Below the pieces are notes generated by a model. It made no database searches and had not been told where the DNA came from. It was given only the letters and a program-made list of their open reading frames with translations. DNA of 64,000 nucleotides. It comes from Rhodanobacter sp. (GTDB taxonomy: Bacteria > Pseudomonadota > Gammaproteobacteria > Xanthomonadales > Rhodanobacteraceae). Of the stretch, positions 6,874-24,217 are shown in pieces; the first letter of the stretch is position 1; each line of letters starts with the position of its first letter. The stretch covers positions 310,001-374,000 of the forward strand of contig SCRM01000016.1 in assembly GCA_004298045.1 (NCBI GenBank). Direction: 5' to 3'. The translations under genes and the position numbers were made by a program.

Positions 6874-8097
6874 TCACACGCTGCGCGTCGCCACCACCGG
6901 CGGCACCGCCGCCGCGCGCAGCGCGGGGCCGAGCACGGCGAGTTGGCCGAGCAGCCACAGCGCGAGCGCACCAATCGGCAGGTAATAGCCGGGCAGGCGC
7001 CCCAGTTCGTAATGCCGCATCAGCAACAGGTTGATGCCGTAGGCCAGCACCATGCCCAACGCAATGCCGAACGTGGCGATCAGGAAGTTTTCAACCTGGA
7101 AGTAGCGCAGGATGTCGCCGCGTGTCGCTCCTATCGCGCGGCGGATGCCGATCTGCCTTCGCCGCTGCGCCACCCAGAAACTGGTCAGCCCCACGATGCC
7201 CACCGCCGTGACGGCCAGCAGCGACACGCACACGCCCACCAGCAGCCACGCCATGGCGCGGTCGTTGCGGTAGTACTTGGCGCGCGCCGCCTCCAGCGTG
7301 GTGGCGTCCTTCGGCGACACCAGCCGGAGCGGGCCATCGGTCTTCAGTGCATGCAAGGCAGCGTGGATCACCGCAGCGCGTTGCGATGCATCCCTCACGC
7401 GCAGCAGGTAGGTGCCTTGCGCATACGACAGGTTCACCGGGAACAGCATGGCGTATTCGTAGGCCTCGGCAGAGCCGGAATCCCGCGGCTGCACCAGCCG
7501 ATCCACCACGCCCACGATGCGATTGGTGCCGAAGGCATAGATCACCTTGCCAACTGCCTGCTGACTCGGAAAGAAATGCCGGGCCAGGGCGCGAGTGATG
7601 ATGACCGGCACGGTACCGCCCGCGCCTTCCATTTGTTCGTCGCTGACGAATTCGTCCGGCTTGAACCAGCGCCCGTCGACCAGCTTGAGGCCCAGCGTGC
7701 CGGGCAGCTGCGCATTGCCGTAATACTGGGTCACCGTGATCGACGGTGCCTTGGGTGCATCGCTGAGGCTGACGCCGCTGGCGCTGAACGAATGGCCGAA
7801 CAAGGTCTGGTTGACGATCGACACATGGGTCACGTCGGGGACGGCGCGCAACGCGGCGAGGTCGGTGTGCGTCTGCGCCATGATCGACCCGGCCGAGCCG
7901 GGCGCGATGCTGCGCACGCGTACCTGCACGAGGTGCGCCTCGTCGACGCCAGTGGGGCGCCGCATGCGCTCCAGGCGCGCGCTGATCAGGAACAGCGCAT
8001 TGCAGATCACTGCGCAGGAGAAGGCGATCTCGAGCACCAGCAGGCACACCGCCATGCGATGACGGGCCAGCGCGCTGAGTATGTGGCGGAAATGCAT
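6874..8097 (-). CDS. MacB/FtsX-type ABC permease, B type (pair 1)
   Basis: A 407-residue permease with one N-terminal membrane segment, a large periplasmic MacB-like domain (about 45-270) and three C-terminal membrane segments carrying the FtsX motif (IGIRRAIGATRGDILRYF). It lacks any fused ATPase domain. The B-type mark is the GVDE motif just after the first membrane helix. A GAGGGGG ribosome site precedes the start. It is the last permease of the array, 13 bases after its A-type partner at 8111-9400, and probably forms a heterodimer with it, powered by the single ATPase at 22056-22781. Confidence 0.9.
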   Translation of the reverse strand: MHFRHILSALARHRMAVCLLVLEIAFSCAVICNALFLISARLERMRRPTGVDEAHLVQVRVRSIAPGSAGSIMAQTHTDLAALRAVPDVTHVSIVNQTLFGHSFSASGVSLSDAPKAPSITVTQYYGNAQLPGTLGLKLVDGRWFKPDEFVSDEQMEGAGGTVPVIITRALARHFFPSQQAVGKVIYAFGTNRIVGVVDRLVQPRDSGSAEAYEYAMLFPVNLSYAQGTYLLRVRDASQRAAVIHAALHALKTDGPLRLVSPKDATTLEAARAKYYRNDRAMAWLLVGVCVSLLAVTAVGIVGLTSFWVAQRRRQIGIRRAIGATRGDILRYFQVENFLIATFGIALGMVLAYGINLLLMRHYELGRLPGYYLPIGALALWLLGQLAVLGPALRAAAVPPVVATRSV

Positions 8098-8110
8098 CGT
8101 CGGTTCCCCC

Positions 8111-9400
8111 TCAGTTCGACTTGATCGCGGCGGCGGGCGCCACGTTCATCGCCCGCCACGCCGGCAACAAGCCCGCCAGCAGGCTGCTCGCCAGGGCCAG
8201 CGCGAACGTGGCCAGCAACATCCGCAGATCCATGTGGATGAAGGCCGCGTAATCGGTGGGCTGGTGGCGCACCAGCAGCAGTCCGAGGCCGGCCAGCGCC
8301 AGGCCGAGCACGCCGCCGGCCAGGCCCACCACGCCGGCCTCGACCAGGCATTGCAGGAAGATCGCGCGACGCGACGCACCCAACGCACGCCGCACGCCCA
8401 GTTCGCTGCTGCGACGCAGAAACTTCGCCAGCAACAGGCCCACCGTGTTGAGCAGGCAGATGCCCAGGAAACCCAGCGCCAGCCACATCTGCAGGCGCAC
8501 GTCGGAGGGCACCACGCCCTTGAAGTCCAGCCACTGCATCACGTCCTGCAATTCGACCTGGCCAGGATGGGTGAAGCGCCCGGCCTGCTGCTGCAGCGCG
8601 ATGTAGTTGCCCAGGTATTGGCGGTAGGCCGCCTTGGCCGGCGTGCCCAGTTCCACCCAGTACTGCAGCCAGATGCACGGCGCGTCGGCGGCGAGGGGGT
8701 CGCTCGCGTTGCCCCAGCACCACATGCTGCCGCTGGTGGACAGTTTCATGTCCACCGCCGTGGACAGAGGCACGAACACGTCCTCGCTGTCGCCGAACTG
8801 GCCGTTGCTGAGGTCATAGAAGCGTGGATTCATGTCCCAGTCGCCCAGCACGCCGACGATACGCAGCGATTGTTTGCCCACCTGCAGGGTTCGGCCCACG
8901 CTGTCCTTGCCGCCGAAGAGCTGCTTGTTCAATTCGCCGGAGATCACCGCGACGTGCGCGCGCTCGGCATCGTCGCTGCGGCTCCACGCGTGGCCGTAGC
9001 GCAGCGGCACGTCGAACATGGGGAAGAAATCCGCGCCGGTGTAGCGCGCCTCCACATTCAACGGATCGCCCTGCGTCGGCACCACGACCATCGAACCACC
9101 CGACATCGCGGCCTGCCGGTCGCCGCGCGCGTCGCGCAGCAGGGCCTCGGCATCGCGCCGGGAAAGGTTGTCCGGCGCCTTGTCTCCGGCTTGGTAATGC
9201 GCGTCGGGGAACACGGCCATGCGCACGCGGAACAATTGCGCGCTCTTGCCTGGAATGGGGTCGCCCGACAACACGTGCATCACCGTCAGCGTGGTCATGC
9301 TGGTGCCGATGCCCAGCGCGATCGTCAGCACCATCAGCGCGGTGAGCGCCTTGTTGCGCTTGAGGCTGCGCAGCGCCAGGTCGAGGTAATAACCGAACAT
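8111..9400 (-). CDS. MacB/FtsX-type ABC permease, A type (pair 1)
   Basis: A 429-residue permease: membrane helix at about 20-42, periplasmic MacB-like domain to about 290, then three helices with the FtsX signature (ELGVRRALGASRRAIFLQ). The start MFGYYLDLAL, preceded by GGAGG, is shared with the other A-type permeases; an upstream in-frame extension is non-coding. Two periplasmic cysteines, Cys228 and Cys242, enclose a 13-residue loop followed by IW and are conserved in position in all five A-type proteins. Expected function is mechanotransmission by MacB-like export with its B partner (6874-8097). Confidence 0.9.
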   Translation of the reverse strand: MFGYYLDLALRSLKRNKALTALMVLTIALGIGTSMTTLTVMHVLSGDPIPGKSAQLFRVRMAVFPDAHYQAGDKAPDNLSRRDAEALLRDARGDRQAAMSGGSMVVVPTQGDPLNVEARYTGADFFPMFDVPLRYGHAWSRSDDAERAHVAVISGELNKQLFGGKDSVGRTLQVGKQSLRIVGVLGDWDMNPRFYDLSNGQFGDSEDVFVPLSTAVDMKLSTSGSMWCWGNASDPLAADAPCIWLQYWVELGTPAKAAYRQYLGNYIALQQQAGRFTHPGQVELQDVMQWLDFKGVVPSDVRLQMWLALGFLGICLLNTVGLLLAKFLRRSSELGVRRALGASRRAIFLQCLVEAGVVGLAGGVLGLALAGLGLLLVRHQPTDYAAFIHMDLRMLLATFALALASSLLAGLLPAWRAMNVAPAAAIKSN

Positions 9401-9420
9401 TCCATGCCTCCATGTTGAAC

Positions 9421-9453: not shown

Positions 9454-10689
9454 TCACACGCTCCGCGTCGCCACCACCGGCGGCACCGCTGCCGCGCGCA
9501 GCGCGGGGCCGAGCACGGCGAGCTGGCCGATGATCCACAGCACCAGTGCACCGATCGGGAAATAGATGGCCGGCAACCGCGGCAGCTCGTAGTGCATCAT
9601 CAGGAACAGGTTGATGCCGTAGGCCAGCACCATGCCGAGCATGATGCCGAAGCTGACGATCAGGAAGTTCTCGGTCTGAAAGTAGCGCAGGATGTCACCG
9701 CGGGTGGCGCCCAGCGCGCGGCGCACGCCGATGGTGCGGCGGCGCTGCCCCACCCAGAAGCTGGCCAGGCCGACAATGCCCAATGCGGTCACGGTGAGCA
9801 GTGCCACGATCACGCCGACCAGGATACCGGCCATCGCGCGGTCGTTGGCGAAGAACTTCCCGCGCACTTCATCGTAGGTGCGCTGCTGGGTCACCACCCG
9901 CGCCGGGTCGGCCTTCTTCAGCGCGGCCACGGCCGCGTTGAGCACGGCTTCGCGGACTTGCGGCCGGGTGCGGATGATGTAGCTCTGATCCTTGCCCGCG
10001 CCCATGAACAGTGGCAGGACGACCGAATAATGCGCGGTGGTGTCGTTGTAGGCGTTGGCGCGCACCAGGTCGGCCAGCACGCCGACCACACGCACGCCCA
10101 CTTGGGCTGTGAGGTAGATCGTCTTGCCCAGCGGGTTCTGCCCCGGCCACAGGCGGTCGGCCAGCGCCCGCGTGATCACCGTGACCGCCACAGGCAGGCC
10201 CTTCGTATTGCCGCCGGCCAGTGCTTTGATCACCACATCCGCATTGACGATCTCGTCCGGTTGCAGGTGACGCCCCGCCACCAGCCGCGCACCCATGGTC
10301 TGCGGAATGTCCTCGCCGAAGTAGGTGCCGGCACTGAGCGTGGGCTCGCGCTGCGCCGGATCCAGCTTGATGCTGGCGTTCGACGAAGTACCTCCCAGCG
10401 GCAACTGGTTGGTCAGCGCCACCGCCTGTACACCCGGCACCTGCCGCAACACGGCAAGGTCTTCCCGCGCCCGCGCGTAGATGTCGGGCGTGGGCGCGAT
10501 CGCGGCCAGTTGGATCTGCACCAGCGCGTGCTCGTCAATGCCGGTAGTCATGTCCATGTGCTGCAGGCGGTGGCCGATCATGAACACCGCGTTGCAGACG
10601 ATCGCGCAGGTCAGCGCGATCTCCAGGATCAGCAGCCACGAGGTGGTCTTGTGCCGCCGCAGCGTGGAAAGTATCGGTCGCAGTTCCAT
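9454..10689 (-). CDS. MacB/FtsX-type ABC permease, B type (pair 2)
   Basis: A 411-residue B-type permease: N-terminal helix (about 20-42), GIDE motif, MacB-like periplasmic domain, and three C-terminal helices with the FtsX motif IGVRRALGATRGDILRYF. The start is preceded by TTGAGGGC. It follows its A-type partner (10699-12006) after 9 bases. Closest visible relatives in the window are the B proteins of pairs 1 and 3. Confidence 0.9.
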   Translation of the reverse strand: MELRPILSTLRRHKTTSWLLILEIALTCAIVCNAVFMIGHRLQHMDMTTGIDEHALVQIQLAAIAPTPDIYARAREDLAVLRQVPGVQAVALTNQLPLGGTSSNASIKLDPAQREPTLSAGTYFGEDIPQTMGARLVAGRHLQPDEIVNADVVIKALAGGNTKGLPVAVTVITRALADRLWPGQNPLGKTIYLTAQVGVRVVGVLADLVRANAYNDTTAHYSVVLPLFMGAGKDQSYIIRTRPQVREAVLNAAVAALKKADPARVVTQQRTYDEVRGKFFANDRAMAGILVGVIVALLTVTALGIVGLASFWVGQRRRTIGVRRALGATRGDILRYFQTENFLIVSFGIMLGMVLAYGINLFLMMHYELPRLPAIYFPIGALVLWIIGQLAVLGPALRAAAVPPVVATRSV

Positions 10690-10698: not shown

Positions 10699-12006
10699 TC
10701 AATTGCTCTTGAGTTGCAGGGCGGGCGCCACCTGGCAGGCGCGCCAGGCCGGCAGCAGGCCGGCGAGCAGGCTCGCGCCCAGCGCCAGCAGGAAGGTGGT
10801 CAGCAGCATGGCGGGATCGAGGTGCGCCAGCGCGGCGTAATCGGAAGGCCGGTGCCGCACCACCCACAGGCCGAGCACGGCGAGCAGCAGGCCACCCACG
10901 CCACCCACCAAGCCGACTACGCCCGACTCGATCAGCAACTGCGCGAACAGCGCGCGCCGCGATGCGCCCAGTGCACGTCGCACGCTGAGTTCGGCGCTGC
11001 GGCGCAGGAACTTCGCCAGCATCAGGCCCACCGTGTTGACTAGGCAGACCAGTAGGAAGCCGAACGCCAGCCCGGTCTGCAGGCGCACGTCGTCGGGCAC
11101 CACCTGCATGTGCGCCAGCCATTGCATCAGGTCGCGCAGGCGCACGTTCGGCGCCTTCACGAAGCGGCCCAGCGCTTTCTGCTGCTCGGAGTAATGAACC
11201 AGGAATTCCTTGTAGTCGGCGGCCTTGGCCGGCGTGTCCAGTTGCACCCAGAACTGCATCCAGACGCAGCTCGACGAGGGATAGATGCGGCCCACGCCGC
11301 CGGTGCCGTTGCCCCAACAGTCGGAGGATCCGTTGTGGTCCACGTGCAGGTCCAGCGCTGTCTGCAGCGGCATGAACACCTGTTCCGCATAGCCGTAGGC
11401 ACCGGTGTTGAGATCGTAGAAATGCGGGCTGGGCGCCCAGTCGCCGAGCACGCCCACGATGCGGAACAGGCTGCCAGCCATGCGCAGGGTGCGCCCCACG
11501 CTGTTGGCGCCGCCGAACAGGCGCTCGTTCAACTCGCCGCTGATGACAACGTCGCGTGCCTTCGCCTCGTCGTCGGCGGCATTCCAGCCGTGGCCGTAAC
11601 GGAACGGCGCGCCGAACATCGCGAAGAAATCCGCCGTGGTGTAACGCGCCTCCACGTAGAACGGATCGATCGCGGCGGAGTCAGGCCGGATCGGTACCGA
11701 GCCGCCCGTCATCAGCGCCTGCCGATCCGCCCGCTTCGCATGCAGCAGGTTGAAGCCGTCGATCTCCGTGACCTGCTGCGGCGGCTCCTTGCCCGGCATG
11801 ATGCCGCTGTCGTCGCGCGCGTCGACTTGCGGGTAGTACAGCGTGCCGCTGCGCCCCGGCAGCGGGTCGCCGGACAGCACGTGCAGCACGGTGAGCGTGG
11901 TCATCGACGCGCCGATGCCCAGCGCGATGGCCAGTACCATCAGCGCGGTGAGCGCCTTGTTGCGCCTGAGGCTGCGCAAGGCGAGGTCGAGGTAGTAGCC
12001 GAACAT
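10699..12006 (-). CDS. MacB/FtsX-type ABC permease, A type (pair 2)
   Basis: A 435-residue A-type permease starting MFGYYLDLALRSLRR, with the usual topology: one helix, a large periplasmic domain, three helices with ELSVRRALGASRRALF. Cys230 and Cys247 flank a 16-residue loop rich in Gly, Ser and Tyr that differs from the loops of the other copies. It belongs to the pair 1-3 subgroup by its LTVLHVLSGDPLPGRS segment after the first helix. Confidence 0.9.
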   Translation of the reverse strand: MFGYYLDLALRSLRRNKALTALMVLAIALGIGASMTTLTVLHVLSGDPLPGRSGTLYYPQVDARDDSGIMPGKEPPQQVTEIDGFNLLHAKRADRQALMTGGSVPIRPDSAAIDPFYVEARYTTADFFAMFGAPFRYGHGWNAADDEAKARDVVISGELNERLFGGANSVGRTLRMAGSLFRIVGVLGDWAPSPHFYDLNTGAYGYAEQVFMPLQTALDLHVDHNGSSDCWGNGTGGVGRIYPSSSCVWMQFWVQLDTPAKAADYKEFLVHYSEQQKALGRFVKAPNVRLRDLMQWLAHMQVVPDDVRLQTGLAFGFLLVCLVNTVGLMLAKFLRRSAELSVRRALGASRRALFAQLLIESGVVGLVGGVGGLLLAVLGLWVVRHRPSDYAALAHLDPAMLLTTFLLALGASLLAGLLPAWRACQVAPALQLKSN

Positions 12007-12128: not shown

Positions 12129-13346
12129 TCACACATTCCGCGTCGCCACCACCGGCGGCACCGCGGCGGCGCGCAATGCAGGACCGAGCACGGCAAGCTG
12201 GCCGAGCAGCCACAGCGCGAGTGCGCCGATGGGCAGGTAGTGCAGCGGCAGGCGCGGCACCTCGAACACTTTCATCAGCAGGAGGTTGATGGCGATGGCG
12301 GCCACCACGCCGAGCACGATGCCGAAGCTGACGATCAGGAAGTTCTCGGTCTGGAAGTAGCGCAGGATGTCGCCGCGGGTGGCGCCGATGGCGCGCCGGA
12401 TGCCGATCTGCTTGCGCCGCTGCGCCACCCAGAAGCTGGTCAGGCCCACGATGCCCAGCGCGGTGACGCCAAGCAGCGCCACGATCACCCCCACCAGCAG
12501 GCCGGCCATGGCGCGATCGGTGGCGAAGAAGCGCTCACGCAGTACGGGCAGCGTATCGCTCTGCTGGTGGTCGAACACGGCATCGGGCGCAATCCTGGCC
12601 AGCACCGTCCTGGCCTCGACCATCACGCGATCCAATGCCTGTGGATCGGCGCGGATCAGATAGGTTCCGGCCAGCGGCGGCCCCGACTTCGTGGGCACGA
12701 ACACCGTCCATTGCGCACCGCGTTCGCCCTCCTCGTCGTATTGCTGCACCGAGAGGTTCGCCACCACGCCGATCACGCGAAACTGGTTTTTGCCCGTCCA
12801 GAACGTCTTGCCGAGCGCGTCCTCGCCAGGCCACAGGCGCTGCGCGAACGTGCGCGTGATGAGGACATTCGAGCTGGCCGGCAGATAGCCTTCCACCACG
12901 CTTTGATAATCCTGCGCGCCCGGCATGCGGCCGGCGACCAGCTTCAGCCCAAGAGCTTCCGGCGTACCCGGGTCGCCAAGGTAAAGCTCGGGAACGCCGC
13001 GAAACTGCTTGCCGGCCTGGTCCAGCGTGACGCCAAAGGCGCCGGCCTGCGGGCCAAACGGCACCGAGTTGATGACATGCACGGATTGCACCCCGGGCAT
13101 GGCGCCCAGGCCGGCAACCACACGCGCATTGAGATCGTTGGCGACCTTTGGATCGAAGCCTTCGAGCTGGATGAAGCCCAGCGATGATTCATCCACGCCG
13201 CTGACGAGCTGCATCGCCGACAACCGGCTCGCGATCAAAAAGCCAGCGTTGCACAGCACTGCGCAGGCCAGCGCGATTTCGAGCACGATCAGCAAGGCCG
13301 CGAGCCGGTGCTTCTGCAACGCCGAGAGGACTGGTTTGATCTGCAT
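12129..13346 (-). CDS. MacB/FtsX-type ABC permease, B type (pair 3)
   Basis: A 405-residue B-type permease. The open frame extends far upstream through the neighbouring gene, but the B-type start (MQIKPVLSALQKHRLAAL) at 13346 is preceded by a good site, AGGGGTG, and matches the other B proteins. The GVDE motif follows the first helix, and IGIRRAIGATRGDILRYF marks the FtsX domain. It lies 11 bases after A-type partner 13358-14683. Confidence 0.9.
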   Translation of the reverse strand: MQIKPVLSALQKHRLAALLIVLEIALACAVLCNAGFLIASRLSAMQLVSGVDESSLGFIQLEGFDPKVANDLNARVVAGLGAMPGVQSVHVINSVPFGPQAGAFGVTLDQAGKQFRGVPELYLGDPGTPEALGLKLVAGRMPGAQDYQSVVEGYLPASSNVLITRTFAQRLWPGEDALGKTFWTGKNQFRVIGVVANLSVQQYDEEGERGAQWTVFVPTKSGPPLAGTYLIRADPQALDRVMVEARTVLARIAPDAVFDHQQSDTLPVLRERFFATDRAMAGLLVGVIVALLGVTALGIVGLTSFWVAQRRKQIGIRRAIGATRGDILRYFQTENFLIVSFGIVLGVVAAIAINLLLMKVFEVPRLPLHYLPIGALALWLLGQLAVLGPALRAAAVPPVVATRNV

Positions 13347-13357: not shown

Positions 13358-14683
13358 CTAGAGCACCTTGAGCTGCAGTGCCGGCGGCACGCGGCTGGCA
13401 CGCAGCGCAGGCAGGGCCCCTGCGAGCACGCTCACCACCACCGCCAGCGCAAACGTCAGGAAAAACATGCCGCCGTCGAGGTGCGCAAGATCCGCATACG
13501 GCGTGGGTTGCCGCCGCACCAGCCACAGGCCGAGCAGGCTGAGCAACCAGCCGCCCACGCCGCCGATGAAGCCGATCAGCGCGGCCTCGGCCACGCATTG
13601 CGCAAACACCGCGCGGCGCGAAGCACCCAGCGCCCGGCGCACGCCGAACTCGCCGGCCCGGCGCAGGAACTTGGCCAGCAGCAGGCCCACGGTGTTGAAC
13701 AGACAGATGCCGAGAAAGGCGAAGGCCAGCCAGGTCTGCAGCCGCGCGTTGCGCGGGACGGCGTGGTTGAAATCCAGCCAGCCCATCAGGTCGCGCAGGC
13801 GCGTCTCGGCGTGCTGGAAGCGCCCCAGCGCTTTCTGCTGCTGCGCGTAGTGGTCGAGAAATTCCCGGTACGCGGCCACCTTGGCATGGCTGCCAAGTTC
13901 CACCCACAGCCCGATCCAGTTGCACGGCGCGTTTTGCAGGTGGCCGGGGGCAGACGGCTGTCCCCAGCAATTGAACGGCTGGAACGCACCGTCGTTGATC
14001 TCCAGCGCGCTCCGGAACGGCACGAATACGTCCTCGGGCCTGCCAAAGTAGCCCGCGGTATCGCCGTTGGCGAAACGTCCGCCGGCCACCGTGTAGAACT
14101 GCGGCGCCGGTCGCCAGGGTTTCAGCACGCCGACGATACGTACATCGCTGTCCCTGAGGCGCAGGGTGCGGCCCACGCTGTTCTCGCCACCGAACAGCTT
14201 GTCGTTGAGGTTGGCGGAGATCACCGCCACGCGCGCTCGCTGCGTGTCGTCCTGCGCCGTCCACGCACCGCCATATTGAAACGGCACCGCAAACATCGGG
14301 AAAAAATCCGTGGTGGTGGCAAGCATGGTGAGCATCAGCGCCGGCTTGTTCGACTGCGGCGCAGTGGCCTTGAGCTGGCTGTCCACGATCAGCGCCTGGC
14401 GGTCGGCGCGATGCGCGGTCCACAGGTCCGTTGCGGACTGGTAATCGAGCATGTCCGGCGGCTCGCGATGGTTGCCACCGTGCGGCATGGGGTCGCCGTC
14501 CACCTGCGCATAGAACAGCTGCGCACTGCGCCCCGGCAGGGGGTTGCCGGAGAGGATGTGCATCACCGTCAACGTGGTCATCGCCGCACCGATGCCTACC
14601 GCGATCGCCAGCACCATCAGCGCGGTGAGCACACGGTTGCGCCTGAGGCTGCGCAGCGCCAGATCTAGGTAGTAGCCAAACAT
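13358..14683 (-). CDS. MacB/FtsX-type ABC permease, A type (pair 3)
   Basis: A 441-residue A-type permease (MFGYYLDLALRSLRRNRVL) with the standard layout and FtsX motif EFGVRRALGASRRAVFAQ. Cys239 and Cys254 flank a 14-residue loop. Translation is probably coupled to the DUF559 gene upstream: that gene stops 3 bases before this start and its last codons contain the GGGGGGAGG ribosome site. Confidence 0.9.
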   Translation of the reverse strand: MFGYYLDLALRSLRRNRVLTALMVLAIAVGIGAAMTTLTVMHILSGNPLPGRSAQLFYAQVDGDPMPHGGNHREPPDMLDYQSATDLWTAHRADRQALIVDSQLKATAPQSNKPALMLTMLATTTDFFPMFAVPFQYGGAWTAQDDTQRARVAVISANLNDKLFGGENSVGRTLRLRDSDVRIVGVLKPWRPAPQFYTVAGGRFANGDTAGYFGRPEDVFVPFRSALEINDGAFQPFNCWGQPSAPGHLQNAPCNWIGLWVELGSHAKVAAYREFLDHYAQQQKALGRFQHAETRLRDLMGWLDFNHAVPRNARLQTWLAFAFLGICLFNTVGLLLAKFLRRAGEFGVRRALGASRRAVFAQCVAEAALIGFIGGVGGWLLSLLGLWLVRRQPTPYADLAHLDGGMFFLTFALAVVVSVLAGALPALRASRVPPALQLKVL

Positions 14684-14686: not shown

Positions 14687-15139
14687 TTATCGCCTCCCCC
14701 CGATTTCCCCGTCGGCCGGCGGGAAGTCGATGGACTCCGCACCGCGGCGCGTTTGCCCTTCCCGACCCTTCCCAGCAAGGGAAGAGGTCGGCTTCGATGC
14801 CTGCAGCGCCGCCCGGATCACTTCCCGCACCGCAGCCGAATCGGTGAACACCTCGTGGTGCCCGAAGCGCAGCACGCGAAACCCGGCCCCTTCGAGAAAC
14901 AGCGTGCGCACGGCATCCGCCGCGGCCTGCCCTGCGTCCAGCTCGACGACCACGCGGCGTTCCAGGCACACGAAATCGAGGATGTAATCGGCAAACGGAT
15001 GCCGGCGATGGAATTCGCAGCCATCCATCCGGCGGCCGCGCAGGTACCCCCACAGGAACCGCTCGGCGTCGGTCGCACCATGACGCAAGAGGTGCCGCAG
15101 TGTGGGGCCAAGGGTGAACAGGCTGATCTGGCCTCTCAT
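14687..15139 (-). CDS. DUF559 (restriction-endonuclease-like) protein
   Basis: A 150-residue protein of the DUF559 family, relatives of very-short-patch-repair and other PD-(D/E)XK-type nucleases. Family marks are TDAERFLWGYLRGRRMDG, the RRHPFADYILDFVC stretch and VVELDAGQ (the D...ExD-like core), then VLRFGHHEVFTD. The start MRGQISLFTLG fits the family and has AGGA upstream; a longer in-frame start exists at 15193. The C-terminal 35 residues (TSSLAGKGREGQ onward) look like a non-conserved tail. It lies between permease pairs 4 and 3, in the same direction, with no obvious link to efflux. Confidence 0.82.
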   Translation of the reverse strand: MRGQISLFTLGPTLRHLLRHGATDAERFLWGYLRGRRMDGCEFHRRHPFADYILDFVCLERRVVVELDAGQAAADAVRTLFLEGAGFRVLRFGHHEVFTDSAAVREVIRAALQASKPTSSLAGKGREGQTRRGAESIDFPPADGEIGGRR

Positions 15140-15196: not shown

Positions 15197-16456
15197 TCAC
15201 CCCGCCCGCGTGGCCACCACCGGCGGCACGTTGGAGGCGCGCCGCGCCGGCACGAACACGGCACACTGGCCCAGCACCAGCACCGCCGCCACGCCAACCA
15301 GCGCATAGGCCACCGGCAGGCGATCCATCTCGTAGTAGTGCATCAGCGCCAGGTTGAGGCTCACCGCCATGCCGATGCCGACGACCGCGCCAGCGCCGGC
15401 GATCAGCAGGTTCTCCAACTGGAAGTAGTGCAGGATGTCCACCTTGCGCGCGCCCAGCGCCCGGCGTACGCCGATCTGCCGATGCCGCTGGCCGACCCAG
15501 AAGCTGGTGAGGCCGACGATGCCGGCGGCGGTGACGGCGATCAGGATCAGGCAGATCACGCCCATCAGGATCGCCATGCCCACGTCGGCGCGGTAGGCCT
15601 TGGCGCGGATGTCGCCGAACGACTTCACGCTGTTGTCGTCGAGCACGCGCAGCGGATTGGCCCGGTACAAGGCGGGCGCCACCGTACGCATCACCGCATC
15701 GAGCTGGCCCGGCCTGGTGCGCACCGCATAGCGCGAGAAGTTCGCGTCCAGCCGCGCCGGAATCAGGGTGGCGTTCCAGGCGAAGTCATTGGCCCAGGTG
15801 CCGACGGCCGGCGCCTGCAGGCGCGCCACCACGCCGATAATGGTGGATGGTGTGCTGCTGCCGTCGCTGTAGATCGCCTTGCCCACCGCACCGCCCTGCG
15901 GGAACAGCTTGTCCGCCAGCGCCTTGGTGACCATCACGATGGGGCGCGGCGGGTTGTCGCGGAAACCCTGGTGCTGCACGTCGCCGGCATGGAACGCGCG
16001 GCCGGCGACCAATGTCAGACCCAGCGTGGACATCACTTGGTCGTCGGTGAAGTAGTAGGTGGTGCGCACATTGGCGGACTTGTCACTGAACTTCGCGTCC
16101 GGCTTGAGCGACACCGCGCCGTTCCATGACGAGTCGAGCAGCGGCAGCGAGTTCACCGACGCCACCGAGGCCACGCCGGGCAGGCTGCGCAGCGCCGCCA
16201 GGTCTTCCTTCTGCATGGCGTCGAGCTTCGCCACGCCGTCGGGAGTGTCGGCATTGGGCGCGCCCACCCATTGCTGGCTGACCAGGAACAGGTTGCTCTC
16301 GTCCAGCCCGGTGGGACGGTTCACCCGGTCGACGCGCTGGCCGATGATGAAGATCGCGTTGCAGACGATCGCCAGGGTCAGCGCGATCTGCAGCGCGATC
16401 AGCACCACGCCCGCTTTGTGCTTGCGCAATGCCGCGATCATGGGGTGCAGTTTCAT
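15197..16456 (-). CDS. MacB/FtsX-type ABC permease, B type (pair 4)
   Basis: A 419-residue B-type permease with start MKLHPMIAALRKHKAGV, preceded by AAAGGAAAT. The first helix reads LIALQIALTLAIVCNAIF, shared almost exactly with pair 5 but not with pairs 1-3, and a GLDES motif follows. The FtsX motif is IGVRRALGARKVDILHYF. Its A-type partner is 16596-17912; the 139-base gap between them holds a REP-like hairpin. Confidence 0.9.
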   Translation of the reverse strand: MKLHPMIAALRKHKAGVVLIALQIALTLAIVCNAIFIIGQRVDRVNRPTGLDESNLFLVSQQWVGAPNADTPDGVAKLDAMQKEDLAALRSLPGVASVASVNSLPLLDSSWNGAVSLKPDAKFSDKSANVRTTYYFTDDQVMSTLGLTLVAGRAFHAGDVQHQGFRDNPPRPIVMVTKALADKLFPQGGAVGKAIYSDGSSTPSTIIGVVARLQAPAVGTWANDFAWNATLIPARLDANFSRYAVRTRPGQLDAVMRTVAPALYRANPLRVLDDNSVKSFGDIRAKAYRADVGMAILMGVICLILIAVTAAGIVGLTSFWVGQRHRQIGVRRALGARKVDILHYFQLENLLIAGAGAVVGIGMAVSLNLALMHYYEMDRLPVAYALVGVAAVLVLGQCAVFVPARRASNVPPVVATRAG

Positions 16457-16595: not shown

Positions 16596-17912
16596 TCAGT
16601 TCGATTTCAGTTGCCACGCGGGCTGCACCCGCGAGGCACGCCAGGTGGGATAAAGGCCAGCCAGCATGGTGGCGAGCACCGCCACCAGCAGGGTCAGCAC
16701 CAGCAGCGAAACGTCCAGCCGCGCCAGCGAGGCGATGTCCTTCGGCAGCACCCAGCCCACACCGGCCACGCCAGCGCAGGTAAGCGCGAGGCCGAGCCCG
16801 CCGCCGGCCACGCCGACCATGCCGGCCTCGGTGAGAAACTGCAGGTAGATCGCCTTGCGCGTCGCACCCAGCGCACGGCGCACACCGATCTCACCGCTGC
16901 GGCGCAGGAACTTCGCAAGCAGCAGGCCGATGGTGTTGACCAGGCACACCAGCAGCAGGCCCAGCGCCACCAGCAGCGAGACCTTGGTGTCCCGGGGCAC
17001 CACGTGTTGGTCATCCAGCCACGCGCGCAGGTCGCGCAGGCGGTTGTTCGGCGCCCAGCCGAAACGGCCGGCCTGCTGCTGCTCGCGCGCATAGCCCTGC
17101 AGGTAATCGCGGTAGGCGGCCACCGCCGCGGCATCGTCCAGCTCGGCCAGATACGCGATCCACACGCACTCGGATTGCTGCAGGCCGATGAAGCCGGATT
17201 CCTTGGGCACCGCGTTGCAGTTGGTATTGCCGTCGTTCGGGATGGCCGCCTGGATCGCCGTCTGGAACGGCAGGAACACGTCGTCGGACTGGCTGTTGAA
17301 GCCGCCCGAATTGACCACGTCGTAGAACCGCGGCTGCGGGTTCCAGTCGTTCAGCACGCCCACCACGCGATAGTCGCGGCCCTCGATGCTGACGCTCCGG
17401 CCCACGCTGTTGGTGCCGCCGAACAGCTTCTGGTTGAGCTTGCTGCTGATCACCGTCACCTGCGCGCGGTTGGCGTCGTCGCTGGCGCCCCAGCCGCTGC
17501 CGTACTGGAACGGCGTATCCAGCATCGGGAAGAATTCGCCGTAGACCGCGTGGCCGCTGACGTTGATCGGGTGCTTGCCGGCCCCTGCGGGCACGATCGA
17601 GGGCGAGATCTGGTACATCGCCGATTGCCGCTTGGCGCGGTGGTCGCGCATCAGCGTGGTCGCGTCGGCGTAGTCCATCGCACTTGGCGGGTCGCCATTC
17701 GGATTTCGGCCGTTCGGCCCCCAGTTGTCGATTTGCGGCACGAACAGTTGCGCGGATTTCCACGGGATCGGATCGCCCGACACCGCGCGGAACACCGACC
17801 ACGAGGTCATCGAGGCGGCCACGCCAAAGCCGATCGCCAGCACCATCAGCGCGGTCAGTCCGGGGCTGCGTTTCAGGCTGCGCAGGGCCAGTTCGAGGTA
17901 ATAGGCAAACAT
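16596..17912 (-). CDS. MacB/FtsX-type ABC permease, A type (pair 4)
   Basis: A 438-residue A-type permease; the start MFAYYLELALRSLKRS matches the family, and the upstream in-frame part comes from the intergenic repeat. After the first helix it has SVFRAVSGDPIP, shared with pair 5 but not with pairs 1-3. Cys232 and Cys249 flank a 16-residue loop. The FtsX motif is EIGVRRALGATRKAIYLQ. Confidence 0.9.
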   Translation of the reverse strand: MFAYYLELALRSLKRSPGLTALMVLAIGFGVAASMTSWSVFRAVSGDPIPWKSAQLFVPQIDNWGPNGRNPNGDPPSAMDYADATTLMRDHRAKRQSAMYQISPSIVPAGAGKHPINVSGHAVYGEFFPMLDTPFQYGSGWGASDDANRAQVTVISSKLNQKLFGGTNSVGRSVSIEGRDYRVVGVLNDWNPQPRFYDVVNSGGFNSQSDDVFLPFQTAIQAAIPNDGNTNCNAVPKESGFIGLQQSECVWIAYLAELDDAAAVAAYRDYLQGYAREQQQAGRFGWAPNNRLRDLRAWLDDQHVVPRDTKVSLLVALGLLLVCLVNTIGLLLAKFLRRSGEIGVRRALGATRKAIYLQFLTEAGMVGVAGGGLGLALTCAGVAGVGWVLPKDIASLARLDVSLLVLTLLVAVLATMLAGLYPTWRASRVQPAWQLKSN

Positions 17913-18012: not shown

Positions 18013-19251
18013 TCACACGCTGCGCGTGGCTTCCACCGGCGACACGCGCGAGGCGCGCAGCGCCGGCGCCAGCACCGCGCCTTGTCCCAGCAGCAACAGC
18101 ACGATCACGCCGACGCCCACGTAGCCCAGCGACATGCGATCCAGCGCGAAGCGGGTCACCGTCCACAGGTTGAAGGCGAACGCCAGCACCACGCCCAACG
18201 CCACACCCGCCGCGCTGATCAGGAAGTTCTCGGTGAGGAAGTAGGCGAGGATGTCGCGCTGCCTGGCTCCGAGTGCGCGGCGCACGCCGATCTGCCTGCG
18301 GCGCTGACCCACCCAGAAGCTGGTGAGGCCCACGATGCCGGCAGCGGTGATCGCCAACAGCACCACGCAGATGATGCCCATCAGGATCGCCATGCCGCGG
18401 TCGCTGTCGTACACCTTGTGACGGATGGTCGCGTAATCCTGGATGCCGTCCTTCGGGTCGATGATGCGCAGTCGGCTCTGGGCGAGCAGTGCCTTCGGCG
18501 CCTCGCGCATCGCAGCAGCGAGCTGGCCCGGCTTGGCGCGCACGATGTAGTAGAGGCCGCGCGAATCGTCCGACCGTATCGGCCAGATCAGCGCCTGGCC
18601 GGCATGGGCGTTGCTGTATTGATCCACGCCCTGCCGGTGCAGCGGATCGACGATGCCGACGATGGTGCTGGGCATGGGGCTCATCGCGTAGAAGCTTTTA
18701 CCCAGTGCGTCGCCGGCGGGAAACAGCTTATCGGCCAGCGCCTTGCTCACGATCGCCGTCGGCGAGAACGTCGCCTGCTGGGTGCCCATCACCATCACCT
18801 CATCGGGACGGAAGTTGCGCCCTGCGACGAGCTTCAGGCCCAGTGTGTCGAGGAAATTCGCGTCGCCGGTGTACACCGCCGCATCGGTGGTCGGCTGGGT
18901 CTGTTCGGGGGTCAGTGTGACGAAGTTGTCCCAGCCGCCGCCCTTCAGCGGATAGCCGGTGGCCGGTGTGGCATCGCGCACGGCTGGCAGCCGCCGCAGC
19001 GCGAGCAGGTCGGCCTGCACCTGTGCATCGACCTGCGGCGTCGACCAGTCTGCTGCCCATTGGTTGGCGATCACGAAGACACTGGACTCGTCCACTCCGC
19101 TGGCCTTGGACAGGTTGGCCAGCCGCGCGTGGATGATGAACAGCGCGTTACACACGATGGCGAGCGTCAGCGCGATCTGCAGCGCGATCAACAGGGTGCC
19201 AGACTTGTGCCGGCGCAACGCGGTGAGGATGGGGCGGAAATGCAGGTTCAT
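18013..19251 (-). CDS. MacB/FtsX-type ABC permease, B type (pair 5)
   Basis: A 412-residue B-type permease (MNLHFRPILTALRRHKSG) preceded by GAGGAGAGG. Topology and motifs follow the array: GVDESS after the first helix, a periplasmic domain, then IGVRRALGARQRDILAYF. It is closest in text to the B protein of pair 4. Partner: 19262-20572, 10 bases away. Confidence 0.9.
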   Translation of the reverse strand: MNLHFRPILTALRRHKSGTLLIALQIALTLAIVCNALFIIHARLANLSKASGVDESSVFVIANQWAADWSTPQVDAQVQADLLALRRLPAVRDATPATGYPLKGGGWDNFVTLTPEQTQPTTDAAVYTGDANFLDTLGLKLVAGRNFRPDEVMVMGTQQATFSPTAIVSKALADKLFPAGDALGKSFYAMSPMPSTIVGIVDPLHRQGVDQYSNAHAGQALIWPIRSDDSRGLYYIVRAKPGQLAAAMREAPKALLAQSRLRIIDPKDGIQDYATIRHKVYDSDRGMAILMGIICVVLLAITAAGIVGLTSFWVGQRRRQIGVRRALGARQRDILAYFLTENFLISAAGVALGVVLAFAFNLWTVTRFALDRMSLGYVGVGVIVLLLLGQGAVLAPALRASRVSPVEATRSV

Positions 19252-19261: not shown

Positions 19262-20572
19262 TCAACTCGACTTCAACTGCCAGGCCGGCTGCACGTGCGC
19301 CGCGCGCCAGGCCGGATAGAACGCCGCCAGCACGGTCGCGACGATGGCTGCGAGCAGGGTGAGCCCCACCAGCGAGACATCAAGCTGCGCCAGCTGCGCG
19401 ATCTGCGGTGGAAACAGCACGCCCACGCCAGCCACGCCCAGCGCGGTGAGCAGCAGACCAAGCACGCCGCCGGCCAAACCTACCGTGCCCGCTTCGGTCA
19501 GGTACTGCGCGTAGATCTCCAGCCGCGTGGCGCCCAGGGCGCGGCGCACGCCGATCTCGCCCGCACGCCGCATGAACTTCGCCAGCAGCAGGCCGATGGT
19601 GTTGACCAGGCAGATCAGAAAGAAGCCCAGCGCCACCGCCAGCGAGATGCGCGTTTCCGGCGGTACCACATGCCGATAGTCCAGCCACTGCGCCACGTCG
19701 CGCAGGCGCACGTTGGGCGCCCAGGCGTAGCGTCCGGCGCGTTGCTGGCCGGCGGCGTAATGGGTGAGGAAACTGCGGTAGCTCGCGACCTCGGCCGGGG
19801 TGTCCAGTTCCACCCAGGGTGTGATCCACACGCAGTTGCTCTGCAGATACTCCTGCCAGGTGGTGAAGCTGAGCGAACCGCGGCAACTGTTGCGGCCACT
19901 GGGGCGCATCTGCAAATCCAGCGCACGGGTGAACGGGATGTAGATATCCGATTCGTCGGCAAAACCGTGGGTACTGAACAGGTCGTAGAAGCGCGGACGA
20001 GGGTTCCAGTGATTGGTGACGCCCACGACACGGTAATCGCGACCACCAAGGTTGATCGTGCGTCCCACGCTGTTCGCGCCGGCGAATACCTTCTGGTTGA
20101 GTTCAGCGCTGATGACCACGTCGGCGGCACGCGCATCATCGTCTTGTTCGCTCCAGCCGCCGCCGTAGCGGAACGACACTTCGAACATCGCGAAGAAGTC
20201 GCTGCCCACGGCATAACCGATTGCATTCAAGGGCAGGTCGCGGTCGTCGCCCGGCATCACCGACATCTGGACCTGATACAGCAACGTCTGGCGCTTTGCC
20301 TCGTGCGCCCGCATCAGCGCCATCGCGTCGATGTAGCCCAGCGCCTCCACCGGCTCGCCATCGATGTTTTGCTGCGGCCCCCAGGCATCGACCTGCGGAA
20401 TGAACAACTGCGCCGACTTGTCCGGTATCGGGTTGCCCGACACCGCGCGAAACACCGAATACGTGATCATCGACGCCGCCACGCCGAAACCGATCGCCAT
20501 CACCATCAATGCGGTGAGCGCCGGATTGCGCCGCAGGCTGCGCAGACCAAGTTGAAAGTAGTAGGCGAGCAT
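19262..20572 (-). CDS. MacB/FtsX-type ABC permease, A type (pair 5)
   Basis: A 436-residue A-type permease (MLAYYFQLGLRSLRRN), the first permease to be transcribed in the array. Cys230 and Cys247 flank a 16-residue loop. The FtsX motif is EIGVRRALGATRLEIYAQ. The VFRAVSGNPIP segment groups it with pair 4. It follows the outer-membrane channel gene after 104 bases that contain an inverted repeat. Confidence 0.9.
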   Translation of the reverse strand: MLAYYFQLGLRSLRRNPALTALMVMAIGFGVAASMITYSVFRAVSGNPIPDKSAQLFIPQVDAWGPQQNIDGEPVEALGYIDAMALMRAHEAKRQTLLYQVQMSVMPGDDRDLPLNAIGYAVGSDFFAMFEVSFRYGGGWSEQDDDARAADVVISAELNQKVFAGANSVGRTINLGGRDYRVVGVTNHWNPRPRFYDLFSTHGFADESDIYIPFTRALDLQMRPSGRNSCRGSLSFTTWQEYLQSNCVWITPWVELDTPAEVASYRSFLTHYAAGQQRAGRYAWAPNVRLRDVAQWLDYRHVVPPETRISLAVALGFFLICLVNTIGLLLAKFMRRAGEIGVRRALGATRLEIYAQYLTEAGTVGLAGGVLGLLLTALGVAGVGVLFPPQIAQLAQLDVSLVGLTLLAAIVATVLAAFYPAWRAAHVQPAWQLKSS

Positions 20573-20676: not shown

Positions 20677-22020
20677 TCATTGCAGCAACCCGTTCACCGC
20701 CTGCAGGTCGCGCATGTCGATGGTGCCGGCGGCCTGCTTGAGCAGCAGCTTGTTGAGCACGAACTGGTGGCGCACCACGGTGTATTCGCTCTGCATGCTG
20801 GCGAGGTACTGGATGGCGAACACCACGTTGGTCAGCGACTGCGTGCCGATGGTGTAGCCCGCGCGCATTGAGGCCACGGTCTTCTGCGCGGCATCGACCG
20901 AGTCGCGCGCGCTGGCCACCTGCTCGATGCCGTCCACCACCAGGTTGAAATAGTTGGCCGCGTCGCGCGCGGCCTGGCGGCGCCGGGTTTCCAGCACACC
21001 CTGGTCGGCGTCGCGCTGGTACAGCGCCTGCTTCACCCGTGCATGCGTGAGCCCGCCGCTGAACAACGGGACATTGAGGGTAAGGCCCACCGTGGTGGTG
21101 GCCGGCCCGTAGGCGCCGGTGCCCGGCATGGTGTTCGACCACTGGCCGAACTTGTTGTAGCCAACGCCGGCGACGAGCGTCGGCAGGTGGCCGGCGCGCG
21201 CCGCGCCCACCCGGTGCTCGTCGCTGGTCACGGCGTAGCGCGCGGCGAGCACGGTGGGGTTGGTCTTCAGCGCCGCGTCCACCCACGCCTGCTCGCTGTC
21301 CGGCTGTGGCGGCTGCATCGGCAGGTCGTCGCGCAGCTTCTTCAGCTCGCCCACCGGCTTGCCGGTGATCTGCTGCAGCGCGCGGCGGGCGTCCTTGACG
21401 CCGTCCTGCGCACTGATCCGCTGGGCCTTGATGTACAGGTAGAGCGCCTTCGACTGGTTGACGTCGGCCTCCATCGACAGCCCGTTCTTGAAGCGCGAGG
21501 AGGTCTGCTCGAACTCCTGCTTGTAGGCGTCCTCGTAGGCACGGTCGATGGCGAGCATGTCCTGGGCCACCAGCACGTTGAAATACGCACCGGCCACGCG
21601 CACGTACAGGTTCTGCAGCGCGGCCTGGTAGGTCTGCTCCTGGGCATCCTCGGCGGCATGCGCCGCGCGCAGGCTGGCAATGGCGGACAGGTCGACGATC
21701 GGCTGGCTGAAGTTGCCGACGAGACTGCGGCCGCGCACGTGCCCGCCACCGCCGGTCTGGACGATGTTGCCGCTGCCGTCGGTGGTCTGCGTGCTGCCGG
21801 TGCTGTGGATCTGGTTCAACGCCAGCCCGGCCGACAACTGCGGCAACAGCGCCGCGCGCGCCACCGGCACACCTTCGGCCACCAGCAGCCGCTGTGCATC
21901 GGCGGTGGCCAGCACCGGATCGTTGGCGACCGCCTGGCGGTAGGCGTCCATCAGGTCTTCGCCGTGCACCAGCATCGGCGCAAGGGCAAGCAGCAGGGCG
22001 GGCAACAGCTTCATGCGCAT
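20677..22020 (-). CDS. TolC-family outer-membrane efflux protein
   Basis: A 447-residue TolC/OEP-type protein. The signal peptide is MRMKLLPALLLALAPMLVHG; the alternative start 22014 differs by two residues. The mature part has the two OEP halves with long coiled-coil helices (DAYRQAVANDPVL, ARYAVTSDEHRVGAARAG, then the C-terminal YTIGTQSLTNVVFAIQYL). It should form the trimeric outer-membrane exit duct for the adaptor and permeases of this block. It lies just after the ATPase gene (35 bases). Confidence 0.92.
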   Translation of the reverse strand: MRMKLLPALLLALAPMLVHGEDLMDAYRQAVANDPVLATADAQRLLVAEGVPVARAALLPQLSAGLALNQIHSTGSTQTTDGSGNIVQTGGGGHVRGRSLVGNFSQPIVDLSAIASLRAAHAAEDAQEQTYQAALQNLYVRVAGAYFNVLVAQDMLAIDRAYEDAYKQEFEQTSSRFKNGLSMEADVNQSKALYLYIKAQRISAQDGVKDARRALQQITGKPVGELKKLRDDLPMQPPQPDSEQAWVDAALKTNPTVLAARYAVTSDEHRVGAARAGHLPTLVAGVGYNKFGQWSNTMPGTGAYGPATTTVGLTLNVPLFSGGLTHARVKQALYQRDADQGVLETRRRQAARDAANYFNLVVDGIEQVASARDSVDAAQKTVASMRAGYTIGTQSLTNVVFAIQYLASMQSEYTVVRHQFVLNKLLLKQAAGTIDMRDLQAVNGLLQ

Positions 22021-22055: not shown

Positions 22056-22781
22056 TCACGCCGGGTCCGCGCTGCCGTGCGCGGCGGCGTGGCCGGTGTG
22101 GAACCGCGGTTCCTCGGCGAGATCCACCACCTGGCCGTCGATGATGTGCACGTTGCGCTGTGCACGGGCGGCCAGCTCGGGATCGTGGGTGACCATGACG
22201 ATGGTGGCGCCGCCCTGGTGGATTTCCTCCAGCAGCTCCAGCACGCCGCGCGCCATCTGCGTATCCAGGTTGCCGGTGGGTTCATCGGCGAGCAGCAGGC
22301 GGGGTGAACCGGCCAGCGCGCGGGCGATCGCCACGCGCTGCTGCTGGCCGCCGGAAAGCTCCGCCGGATAATGCTTGAGCCGCGACGACAACCCCACGCG
22401 CTCCAGCGCATCCATGATCCGCTGCTTGCGCTCCGGCGCCTTCATGCCGCGGTAGCGCAGCGGCACCTCCACGTTGTCGAACACGTTGAGGTCGGGAATG
22501 AGGTTGAACGCCTGGAAGATGAAGCCGATCTTCTCGTTGCGGATCTTCGAGCGCGCGTTGTCGTTCAACTGGCTCACCTCGATGCCGTCAAGGTGGTACT
22601 CGCCGCCGCTGAAGGTTTCCAGCAGGCCGGCGATGGTGAGGAAGGTGGTCTTGCCCGACCCGGACGGGCCGGTGACGGCGACGAACTCGCCTTCCTTCAC
22701 GTCGATGTTGAAATCGCGCAGCGCATAGGTCTCCACCACTTCGGTGCGATAGACCTTGGACAGGTGGGTCATTTTCAGCAT
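22056..22781 (-). CDS. ABC transporter ATPase, MacB/LolD type
   Basis: A 241-residue nucleotide-binding protein with Walker A GPSGSGKTT (about 41-49), Q loop, signature LSGGQQQRVAIARAL, Walker B LLLADEPTGNLD and the switch His in VTHDPEL. The family is that of MacB, LolD and FtsE. The start (MLKMTHLSKVYRTEVVETYAL) has GAGG upstream; the upstream in-frame extension is the intergenic repeat. It is the only ATPase in the block, so it presumably powers all five permease pairs. Confidence 0.94.
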   Translation of the reverse strand: MLKMTHLSKVYRTEVVETYALRDFNIDVKEGEFVAVTGPSGSGKTTFLTIAGLLETFSGGEYHLDGIEVSQLNDNARSKIRNEKIGFIFQAFNLIPDLNVFDNVEVPLRYRGMKAPERKQRIMDALERVGLSSRLKHYPAELSGGQQQRVAIARALAGSPRLLLADEPTGNLDTQMARGVLELLEEIHQGGATIVMVTHDPELAARAQRNVHIIDGQVVDLAEEPRFHTGHAAAHGSADPA

Positions 22782-22848: not shown

Positions 22849-22924
22849 GTGATTGGGGATTCGGCAAAGCCAAGGCCCACGCACTGCCGTTTTTCCGAAT
22901 CTCCAATCCCGGATCCCCAATCAC
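22849..22924. repeat. GGGATTCGG-family inverted repeat
   Basis: GTGATTGGGGATTCGG is complemented by a CCGAATCTCC...CCCCAATCAC arm. It lies between the adaptor and ATPase genes, within the same transcription direction. Confidence 0.7.
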
Positions 22925-22945
22925 GGGACGGCACCGAAAGCTCCG

Positions 22946-24217
22946 CTACCGCGCGATCGCCACGCGCGCCGCACCCTTGAAACTATCCGTACCGGAAATC
23001 ACGATCTGGTCGCCTTCCTTGAGGCCCTGCAGGATCTCCACCTTGTCGATGCTGGAGACGCCCACGCGAATCGGGGTCCTGGTGGCAATGCCGTCCTTGA
23101 CCACGTAGGCGTAGCTGCCGCCGGATTCGTCGACGAAGGAACCGCGCTGCACGGTGAGCACGTTGTCGCGCTTGTCGAGCAGGATGCGCACGGACAGGCG
23201 CTGGTTCTGGCGCAACTGCTTCGGCGTGGTGCCCTCGAAGCGCACGCGGGCGGCCACTTCGCCGTTCACCACCTCGGGCGAGATCGCGCTGACCAGGCCT
23301 TTCCAGGTGTTGCCGTTGCCGCTGATCTCGCCGGTCATGCCGATCGCGAGGTCGCGGGCGAAGCTCTCGGGCACCTTCACTTCCACTTCCAGCGCGGTGA
23401 GGTCGATCACGCTGAGCAGCTGCGCGTCCTTCGCCACGGTCGCCACCGGCGCGATGAACAACTGGCCGACCTGGCCGTCCACCGGCGATTTCACGTTCAA
23501 ATCGTCCACCTGGCGCTGCAGGTCCTGCACCACCAGCATCTGGTTGGCATGCGCCAGCTTCTTGGCCTGGATGTTGAAGTTCAGGCTGTCGTTGCTCATG
23601 CCGAGATCGGCCTTGGCATGCGCCAGCGTGATCCTGGCCTTTTCCAGATCGTCCTTGGCCTTGTCCACCGCCACCCCGGTGGACGCGCCGGCGGCATACG
23701 CCTTCTGCTCGCGGTCGAGGTTGTTGGCGGCGCTCTTGGCATCGATCTGGGCGTCGTCGTAGGCCTTCTGCAAGGCGCCGCGCCTGGTCCGCGCGTCCAC
23801 CTGCGCCTGCAGGTAGTCCACCTTCATCGCGTCGGCCCTGGACTGTTCCTGCGCCAGCTTGTTGCGCAGCTCGGGGCTGTCGATCACCGCCAGCACCTGG
23901 CCCTTCCTCACCGCGTCGCCGGCGCGCACCTTAAGCACCGCCGCGCCGCCGTAGGTGGCGTAGAGCGTGGGGCTGTTCGCCGCCACCACCTTGCCCTCGG
24001 CGGCGATGTCGCGCACGAACGGGCCGCGTTCCACGGTGGCGAAGGCCAGCCGCGACGCGCTCACCGAGGCGTCGGCCGAGAACAGGCGGAGGATGCCGGG
24101 CATGGCGAACGCCAGCACCACCAGCAAAGCCACGCCGCCACCGATGAAGAGCAGGCGACGCTTGCGGTTGGGCTTGGTTTCGACCAGACGGTCCTGGGCG
24201 GAAGTGTCGCGGATCAT
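22946..24217 (-). CDS. Periplasmic adaptor (HlyD/MacA-like), first gene of the efflux block
   Basis: A 423-residue membrane-fusion protein: basic cytoplasmic tail, membrane anchor (about 22-42), lipoyl-like half with ATYGGAAVLKVRAGDAV, a long alpha-helical hairpin (about 120-220), then barrel domains with VKSPVDGQVGQLF. It should link inner-membrane permeases to the TolC-type channel. The start 24217 is supported by the sigma-54 promoter: its predicted transcription start (about 24251) lies inside a longer frame beginning at 24286, excluding that start. No strong Shine-Dalgarno sequence is visible. Confidence 0.92.
   Translation of the reverse strand: MIRDTSAQDRLVETKPNRKRRLLFIGGGVALLVVLAFAMPGILRLFSADASVSASRLAFATVERGPFVRDIAAEGKVVAANSPTLYATYGGAAVLKVRAGDAVRKGQVLAVIDSPELRNKLAQEQSRADAMKVDYLQAQVDARTRRGALQKAYDDAQIDAKSAANNLDREQKAYAAGASTGVAVDKAKDDLEKARITLAHAKADLGMSNDSLNFNIQAKKLAHANQMLVVQDLQRQVDDLNVKSPVDGQVGQLFIAPVATVAKDAQLLSVIDLTALEVEVKVPESFARDLAIGMTGEISGNGNTWKGLVSAISPEVVNGEVAARVRFEGTTPKQLRQNQRLSVRILLDKRDNVLTVQRGSFVDESGGSYAYVVKDGIATRTPIRVGVSSIDKVEILQGLKEGDQIVISGTDSFKGAARVAIAR

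Follow-up and report, generated by a model that had tools for sequence, protein, structure and literature searches.

A tandem array of MacB/FtsX-type permease pairs with a single ATPase gene in Rhodanobacter: a probable tripartite exporter whose alternative heads share one motor

We analysed a stretch of 64,000 nucleotides of a Rhodanobacter sp. genome (assembly GCA_004298045.1, contig SCRM01000016.1, positions 310,001 to 374,000), hereafter called the window, which carries a long tandem array of MacB/FtsX-type permease genes. All array genes lie on the minus strand and follow each other, in the order of transcription, as adaptor, ATPase, channel, A1 B1 A2 B2, a DUF559 protein gene, A3 B3 A4 B4 A5 B5, regulator, small secreted protein and histidine kinase; within the array, neighbouring genes overlap or stand up to 139 bases apart, the inserted gene excepted. 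A preliminary description of this DNA had claimed ten such permeases without a fused ATPase, arranged in one direction as five A-B pairs, which agrees with the Pfam matches, coordinates and identities obtained here. It had also placed one ATPase, one adaptor and one TolC-type channel at the promoter-proximal end, as borne out by the profile matches; to this we add the DUF559 gene and, beyond the last pair, the genes of the regulator, the kinase and the small secreted protein. The features, in positions of the window, are as follows.

22946..24217, minus strand: periplasmic adaptor of the HlyD/RND_mfp type (profile matches; start set by a conserved MIRDT)
22056..22781, minus strand: ATPase of the LolD/MacB/DarD type, the sole ATPase gene of the array (profile matches)
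20677..22020, minus strand: TolC-type outer-membrane channel (profile matches; a second TolC-like gene lies elsewhere in the genome)
19262..20572, minus strand: permease A1, pair type b (Pfam; model mean pLDDT 83.4, top PDB match MacB 5gko)
18013..19251, minus strand: permease B1 (Pfam; model mean pLDDT 91.5, top PDB match MacB 5gko)
16596..17912, minus strand: permease A2, pair type d (Pfam; start from similarity to A1)
15197..16456, minus strand: permease B2 (Pfam)
14687..15193, minus strand: DUF559 protein gene, between pairs 2 and 3 (Pfam)
13358..14683, minus strand: permease A3, pair type c (Pfam)
12129..13346, minus strand: permease B3 (Pfam; start from similarity to B1)
10699..12006, minus strand: permease A4, pair type a (Pfam)
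9454..10689, minus strand: permease B4 (Pfam, FtsX domain only)
8111..9397, minus strand: permease A5, pair type h (Pfam; start from similarity to A1)
6874..8097, minus strand: permease B5 (Pfam)
5041..6390, minus strand: NtrC-family sigma-54 dependent response regulator (Pfam; GAYTGA motif)
4644..4976, minus strand: predicted secreted protein of 110 amino acids with a C-terminal cysteine pair, CASTPMDAACH (own profile)
3229..4611, minus strand: histidine kinase, predicted to span the membrane twice, its two segments joined by only a short loop (Pfam, hydropathy)
24262..24277, minus strand: sigma-54 type promoter TGGCAC-N5-TTGCT (sole exact match in the window; conserved in relatives)
24345..24356, strand not assigned: palindromic operator TGTCCGCGGACA, probable binding site of the regulator (one exact copy in the window; conserved in relatives)

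Pfam recognised an FtsX domain in all ten permeases and a MacB_PCD domain in nine of them, B4 being the exception; in the whole genome of 3.26 Mb there were 12 MacB_PCD matches, 9 of them within the array. Identities in the window array were 46-60% among the A proteins and 38-52% among the B proteins, as against 18-24% between A and B, and this last value suggests that each A-B pair forms a heterodimer. Averaged within arrays, the identity was 0.41 (A) and 0.31 (B) for the periplasmic part and 0.55 (A) and 0.60 (B) for the FtsX part. An RRALGA-type stretch, situated where the ATPase is contacted in related transporters, is nearly invariant across the pairs. AlphaFold2 models of A1 and B1 had the MacB structure 5gko as their top match in the PDB, and LolCDE, YbbAP and Bce-type permeases appeared lower in the lists.

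The adaptor was matched in 140 of 147 Rhodanobacteraceae genomes. Across the order it had a match in 192 of 299 genomes, and a sample of 321 genomes from the class gave 8, four of them from outside the order; it was also found in Roseateles toxinivorans. Its nearest named relatives belong to Rhodanobacter and Fulvimonas, followed by Dyella, Frateuria, Luteibacter and others. We read 51 adaptor-bearing loci, every adaptor distinct, in a survey that reached family, order and class, with genes called by profiles made from the proteins of the window itself. Counting the window, 49 loci had complete arrays; the count leaves out two arrays in which the contig ends (G199, G029) and three stretches without this adaptor. 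The preliminary description had proposed to look for the same layout in related genomes and to count how the number of pairs varies. All 49 complete arrays showed the order adaptor, ATPase, (channel), (A-B)n, regulator, with strict alternation of A and B and one ATPase gene each, so that the alternating layout is more than chance. The pair number n ranged from 1 to 12, with 1 pair in seven arrays, 2 in four, 3 in two, 4 in four, 5 in eleven, 6 in six, 7 in six, 8 in two, 9 in four, 11 in two and 12 in one. The layout is common in the order and not peculiar to this genome.

Other parts of the array were less constant. A kinase gene followed the regulator in 44 of the 49 arrays; in four of the other five the stretch stops at the regulator, and the remaining one (G018) had no kinase match. 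The channel, which the preliminary description listed beside the ATPase and adaptor, is present in the window, but in only 15 of the 49 arrays does its gene stand behind the ATPase, and in one more it stands ahead of the adaptor. Among 20 genomes searched for TolC-like genes, 7 had the in-array channel and a second gene elsewhere, and 13 had one to three genes elsewhere. Two irregularities were noted: the array ATPase of G002 (L025) is split over two reading frames, by a real break or an assembly error, and G006 (C44:67996-114059) shows permease matches of equal score at mirrored positions on opposite strands, a pattern that suggests either an inverted duplication or an artefact of the assembly.

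The A and B partners are inherited as units. The distance matrix of the A proteins correlated with that of the B proteins at 0.88 over 257 pairs; within arrays the correlation was 0.82, whereas shuffling the partners within arrays 300 times gave 0.08 on average and never more than 0.22. When A and B were clustered separately into 20 types, the adjusted Rand index between them was 0.995 (shuffles at most 0.086), and it was 0.78, 0.87 and 0.97 at 10, 15 and 25 clusters, respectively. A joint distance cut at 2.0 defined 25 pair types, and the window array holds types b d c a h in this order; 39 of 50 arrays contained no repeated type. In none of 249 cases was the nearest relative of an A protein a paralogue from the same array, which argues that the pair types are old. 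Together, the pair correlations, the type counts and this last result indicate an old repertoire whose make-up varies from genome to genome through gain and loss of entire pairs.

The single ATPase contrasts with this variety. Among 14 genomes compared, the array ATPase was 90-94% identical to that of the window in 9 of 11 genomes of the family (85% in G002 and 75% in G018) and 69-83% identical in three genomes outside it. It was the most conserved component in the genomes compared, except in G010 and G002, where the adaptor was slightly higher, and the permeases of one array are far more diverged from each other than the ATPase is between genomes. The genome holds 37 ATPase-like matches, of which the next best is 47% identical to the array ATPase; among the seven next ATPases, four have a different permease gene beside them, the match being weak in one case. 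The gene order in the arrays led us to reject a nearby ATPase of its own for each pair. Taken together, these results make it probable, in our view, that the array encodes a type VII (MacB/FtsX-fold) tripartite exporter in which one shared motor serves several alternative heads. The preliminary description had proposed one energy module for five alternative heterodimers; one ATPase at any n, the co-inheritance of the pairs and the conservation of the ATPase lend this comparative, not biochemical, support, and sharing of the ATPase and adaptor among the pairs is the best reading of the data, well supported though not proven.

In such an exporter, two copies of the single ATPase would sit beneath one A-B heterodimer, as in LolCDE, and a hexameric adaptor with a TolC-type channel would take cargo from the periplasm over the outer membrane by the bellows (mechanotransmission) mechanism of MacB. 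Each A-B pair would be a separate head, and because each has its own periplasmic surface, the pairs probably differ in their substrates.

The array is a variant within the type VII (MacB/LolCDE) tripartite exporters. It shares with MacAB-TolC the MacB_PCD and FtsX domains, the MacB fold by model, the adaptor and the TolC-type channel; however, the ATPase of MacAB is fused to the permease, whereas here it is encoded by the separate gene at 22056-22781, and here each pair consists of two unlike permeases with several pairs per ATPase. The adaptor scored 57.5 bits against the MacA model, with a cut-off of 342. MacB-like systems that combine a stand-alone ATPase with a permease heterodimer, such as LolCDE, are already known (PMC5985334, PMC8277102), a correction to the preliminary description, which had set the array against fused homodimers. 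No description of such arrays was found in the literature (open PMC papers). Like LolCDE, the array combines two different permeases with one separate LolD-type ATPase, but it differs in having adaptor and channel genes and several pairs. Its ATPase scored 217.2 against the NCBIfam LolD model (cut-off 307.75), and the four of the ten permeases that were scanned reached at most 26.1 against the lolCE model (cut-off 362.45). LolCDE-like release of lipoproteins without an outer-membrane channel is disfavoured, since adaptor and channel genes are present. The darobactin exporter DarBCD is similar in that DarD was the top NCBIfam match of the ATPase and DarC was among the matches of the adaptor, but the scores of 254.9 and 76.6 lie below the respective cut-offs of 375 and 450. 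No gene for darobactin-type biosynthesis was recognised among the array genes, the remaining window having been scanned in part.

The ADOP family (TIGR03434) is similar in that A corresponds to the first half and B to the second half of its model, and it likewise occurs in tandem arrays that follow an adaptor and an ATPase with unchanged gene order. ADOP, however, is a single chain of about 800 residues, whereas A and B are separate genes here; the four of ten permeases scanned scored 152-190 bits, matching one half each, with a cut-off of 622.3. ADOP matches above the cut-off were present in 38 of 121 genomes of the order, and since few candidates were scored per genome, the counts per genome are lower bounds. 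We read 18 loci selected for tandem ADOP genes (G018 C1:366000-405999, comprising L137 and L138, and 17 more, L179-L196). An adaptor and an ATPase stood ahead of the tandem ADOP genes in all 18, with 2 to 11 ADOP genes per stretch; the adaptor of G026 has one ADOP gene ahead of it, and that of G199 is present as a partial frame. Within these stretches, a regulator lay behind the genes in 12 of the 18 loci and a kinase in 6, and all five of the G018 proteins scanned were above the ADOP cut-off. The family is reportedly named 'orphan' because ATPase genes had not been found beside it, a status that does not hold in these genomes. Group II ECF transporters combine a shared energising module with exchangeable substrate units, and the array would resemble them in having one motor with exchangeable units; they differ in being importers of another fold and, to our knowledge, are not homologous to these exporters.

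Several observations weigh against a motor shared by all pairs. The closest A and the closest B in other genomes belonged to the same pair in only 146 of the 257 cases, a low figure because close relatives compete for the nearest rank, and co-inheritance of neighbouring genes reflects joint duplication and descent and is not proof of contact. Nor does the contrast between the variable periplasmic part and the conserved FtsX part argue strongly for distinct heads, since periplasmic domains diverge faster in such proteins generally. Our structure models of A1 and B1 are of monomers and do not cover contacts in a complex. In 11 of the 50 arrays, one type was present twice. Of the 18 ADOP loci, 8 carry a second ATPase at their end, so that this sister type does not as a rule keep to a single motor. 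Finally, the preliminary description had held that separate ATPase genes for the pairs elsewhere in the genome would refute sharing; as stated above, four of the next ATPases adjoin other permeases, but three of the seven have no permease match within their 3.6-kb loci and might serve some of the pairs.

On these last points rests the alternative that the linked ATPase and adaptor work with just one or two pairs, the rest being idle or served by other LolD/MacB-type ATPases of the genome. The 37 ATPase-like matches with the next best at 47% identity, those without a close permease and the second ATPase in some ADOP arrays speak for it; however, exactly one ATPase gene is found in an array although n reaches 12, the conserved coupling-type stretch occurs in all pairs, and one-pair arrays have the same ATPase family. 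We therefore regard this alternative as unlikely. Slightly less likely still, in our judgement, is that the permeases serve chiefly for sensing or mechanical signalling, in the manner of FtsEX or Bce-type modules, and feed the kinase rather than pump. By crude hydropathy, most of the readable kinases have about 15-32 residues or fewer in the predicted loop that joins their two membrane segments, a length that leaves no room for a large periplasmic sensor domain, and 22 of the 49 loci encode the small secreted protein between regulator and kinase (by a profile from 8 examples). The adaptor found in all arrays and the TolC-type channel of some are nevertheless in keeping with export, and the signal that the kinase detects may be cytoplasmic. 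Gene dosage through recent tandem duplication, with functions that do not differ, has the repeated types in its favour but is rejected as very improbable, because no A protein is closest to one of its own array, and the types are common to several genera and the periplasmic identity within an array is just 0.31-0.41.

An alignment of the upstream regions from 11 genomes of the genus revealed two conserved blocks: TGTCCGCGGACA, which lies about 138 bases ahead of the adaptor start, and TGGCAC-N5-TTGCT, at a distance of about 60 bases from it on the same side. The strict promoter pattern was found upstream of the adaptor in 44 of the 51 loci and the operator in 43. The window contains one exact promoter match, and allowing up to one mismatch gave 4 matches where 3.14 were expected; with one mismatch the match in the window alone is thus no better than chance, and the case for a promoter lies in its conservation. 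A 14-base form of the palindrome had one exact copy in the genome and one more with one mismatch, the backward control giving one match. Promoter and operator combined occurred in 92 of 117 genomes of the family and in none of the backward controls shown. Across the 51 loci, no strict promoter or operator pattern was found between permease genes, and such patterns occurred further downstream at four places only: promoter patterns beyond the array (G010) and inside a kinase gene (Luteibacter rhizovicinus), an operator-like site inside a regulator gene (G025) and an operator in an overlong adaptor frame (G367). There is a single sigma-54 gene in the genome, and GAYTGA is present in the regulator sequence. 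It is probable that the array regulator binds this operator; the regulator encoded at the far end would then bind the palindrome ahead of the adaptor and turn on the whole array from one sigma-54 promoter.

The small secreted protein of the window had no Pfam match. The operator-promoter pair also occurs at further places in other genomes, where about 150 sites were listed, and we fetched 14 of them (L197-L206 and L208-L210 among them), a biased sample because it was picked for likeness between genomes. At 13 of the 14 sites a short gene came next, mostly 42-53 bases past the promoter, with a product of the type MKFExLMLRSLFVACLLVCG; these membrane or secreted peptides have 45-79 residues, and 11 of the 13 end in a cysteine pair, e.g., CALPPDGVVCP. 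Of the two MKFE-type peptides scanned, neither matched a Pfam family, nor did either exceed the cut-off of an NCBIfam model. As a lead, we consider the small cysteine-pair proteins to be candidates for cargo, cue or sensor partner.

Some relatives encode secreted proteins of peptidase-like and other kinds (DUF885, S33, PDZ and YkuD types) inside or at the end of their arrays, one example of each kind having been scanned; none of the four is present in the window. They comprise a DUF885 protein in Dyella jiangningensis (L160:13410-15209), an S33-type alpha/beta hydrolase in G004 (C31), a PDZ protein in Dyella solisilvae (L159) and, in G155, a weak YkuD match below the cut-off. Because some of these are secreted peptidase-like proteins, peptide-like substrates are plausible, no more. 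The DUF559 gene is probably not part of the exporter machine; such a gene also lies inside the array of G014 (L033:17995-18591), between other pairs than in the window.

A published locus may correspond to this array. In the portion of PMC11928319 on which we draw, dssA of Rhodanobacter R179 is an ABC transporter permease in a 17-gene operon and is required for full suppression of flg22-triggered root growth inhibition, with orthologues in 74.7% of Xanthomonadales genomes and some Oxalobacteraceae. An ABC permease in a large operon with order-wide spread fits the array, which may be the dss operon as compared by operon size and distribution; that portion does not describe tandem pairs or a shared ATPase. 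We rejected the count of 17 genes as proof of identity, as our counts with accessory genes are 16 for strain Root480 and 18 for R. spathiphylli, so that 17 lies within the range and no more. If the array is dss, losing a single permease is already enough for a phenotype, an argument against the pairs being fully redundant. More tentatively, and with doubt about the whole, we can picture a secretion array with exchangeable heads, in which one motor and adaptor would drive about 25 old pair types, each array with its own subset; the regulator would also switch on small cysteine-pair peptides, as cargo or cue, in relatives; fused ADOP would be a parallel, non-orphan version; and the array would be the dss operon that quiets plant root immunity.

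If one ATPase and adaptor do serve up to twelve heterodimers, type VII exporters would be exchangeable in the manner of group II ECF importers, a design that we did not find described for exporters (open PMC papers). A large and so far unassigned group of permeases, ADOP arrays included, would then gain a motor, an adaptor and a regulator, and the arrays would offer a natural series from n = 1 to 12 for testing the specificity of heads pair by pair. The array may also supply a mechanism for the published locus by which a plant commensal suppresses immunity.

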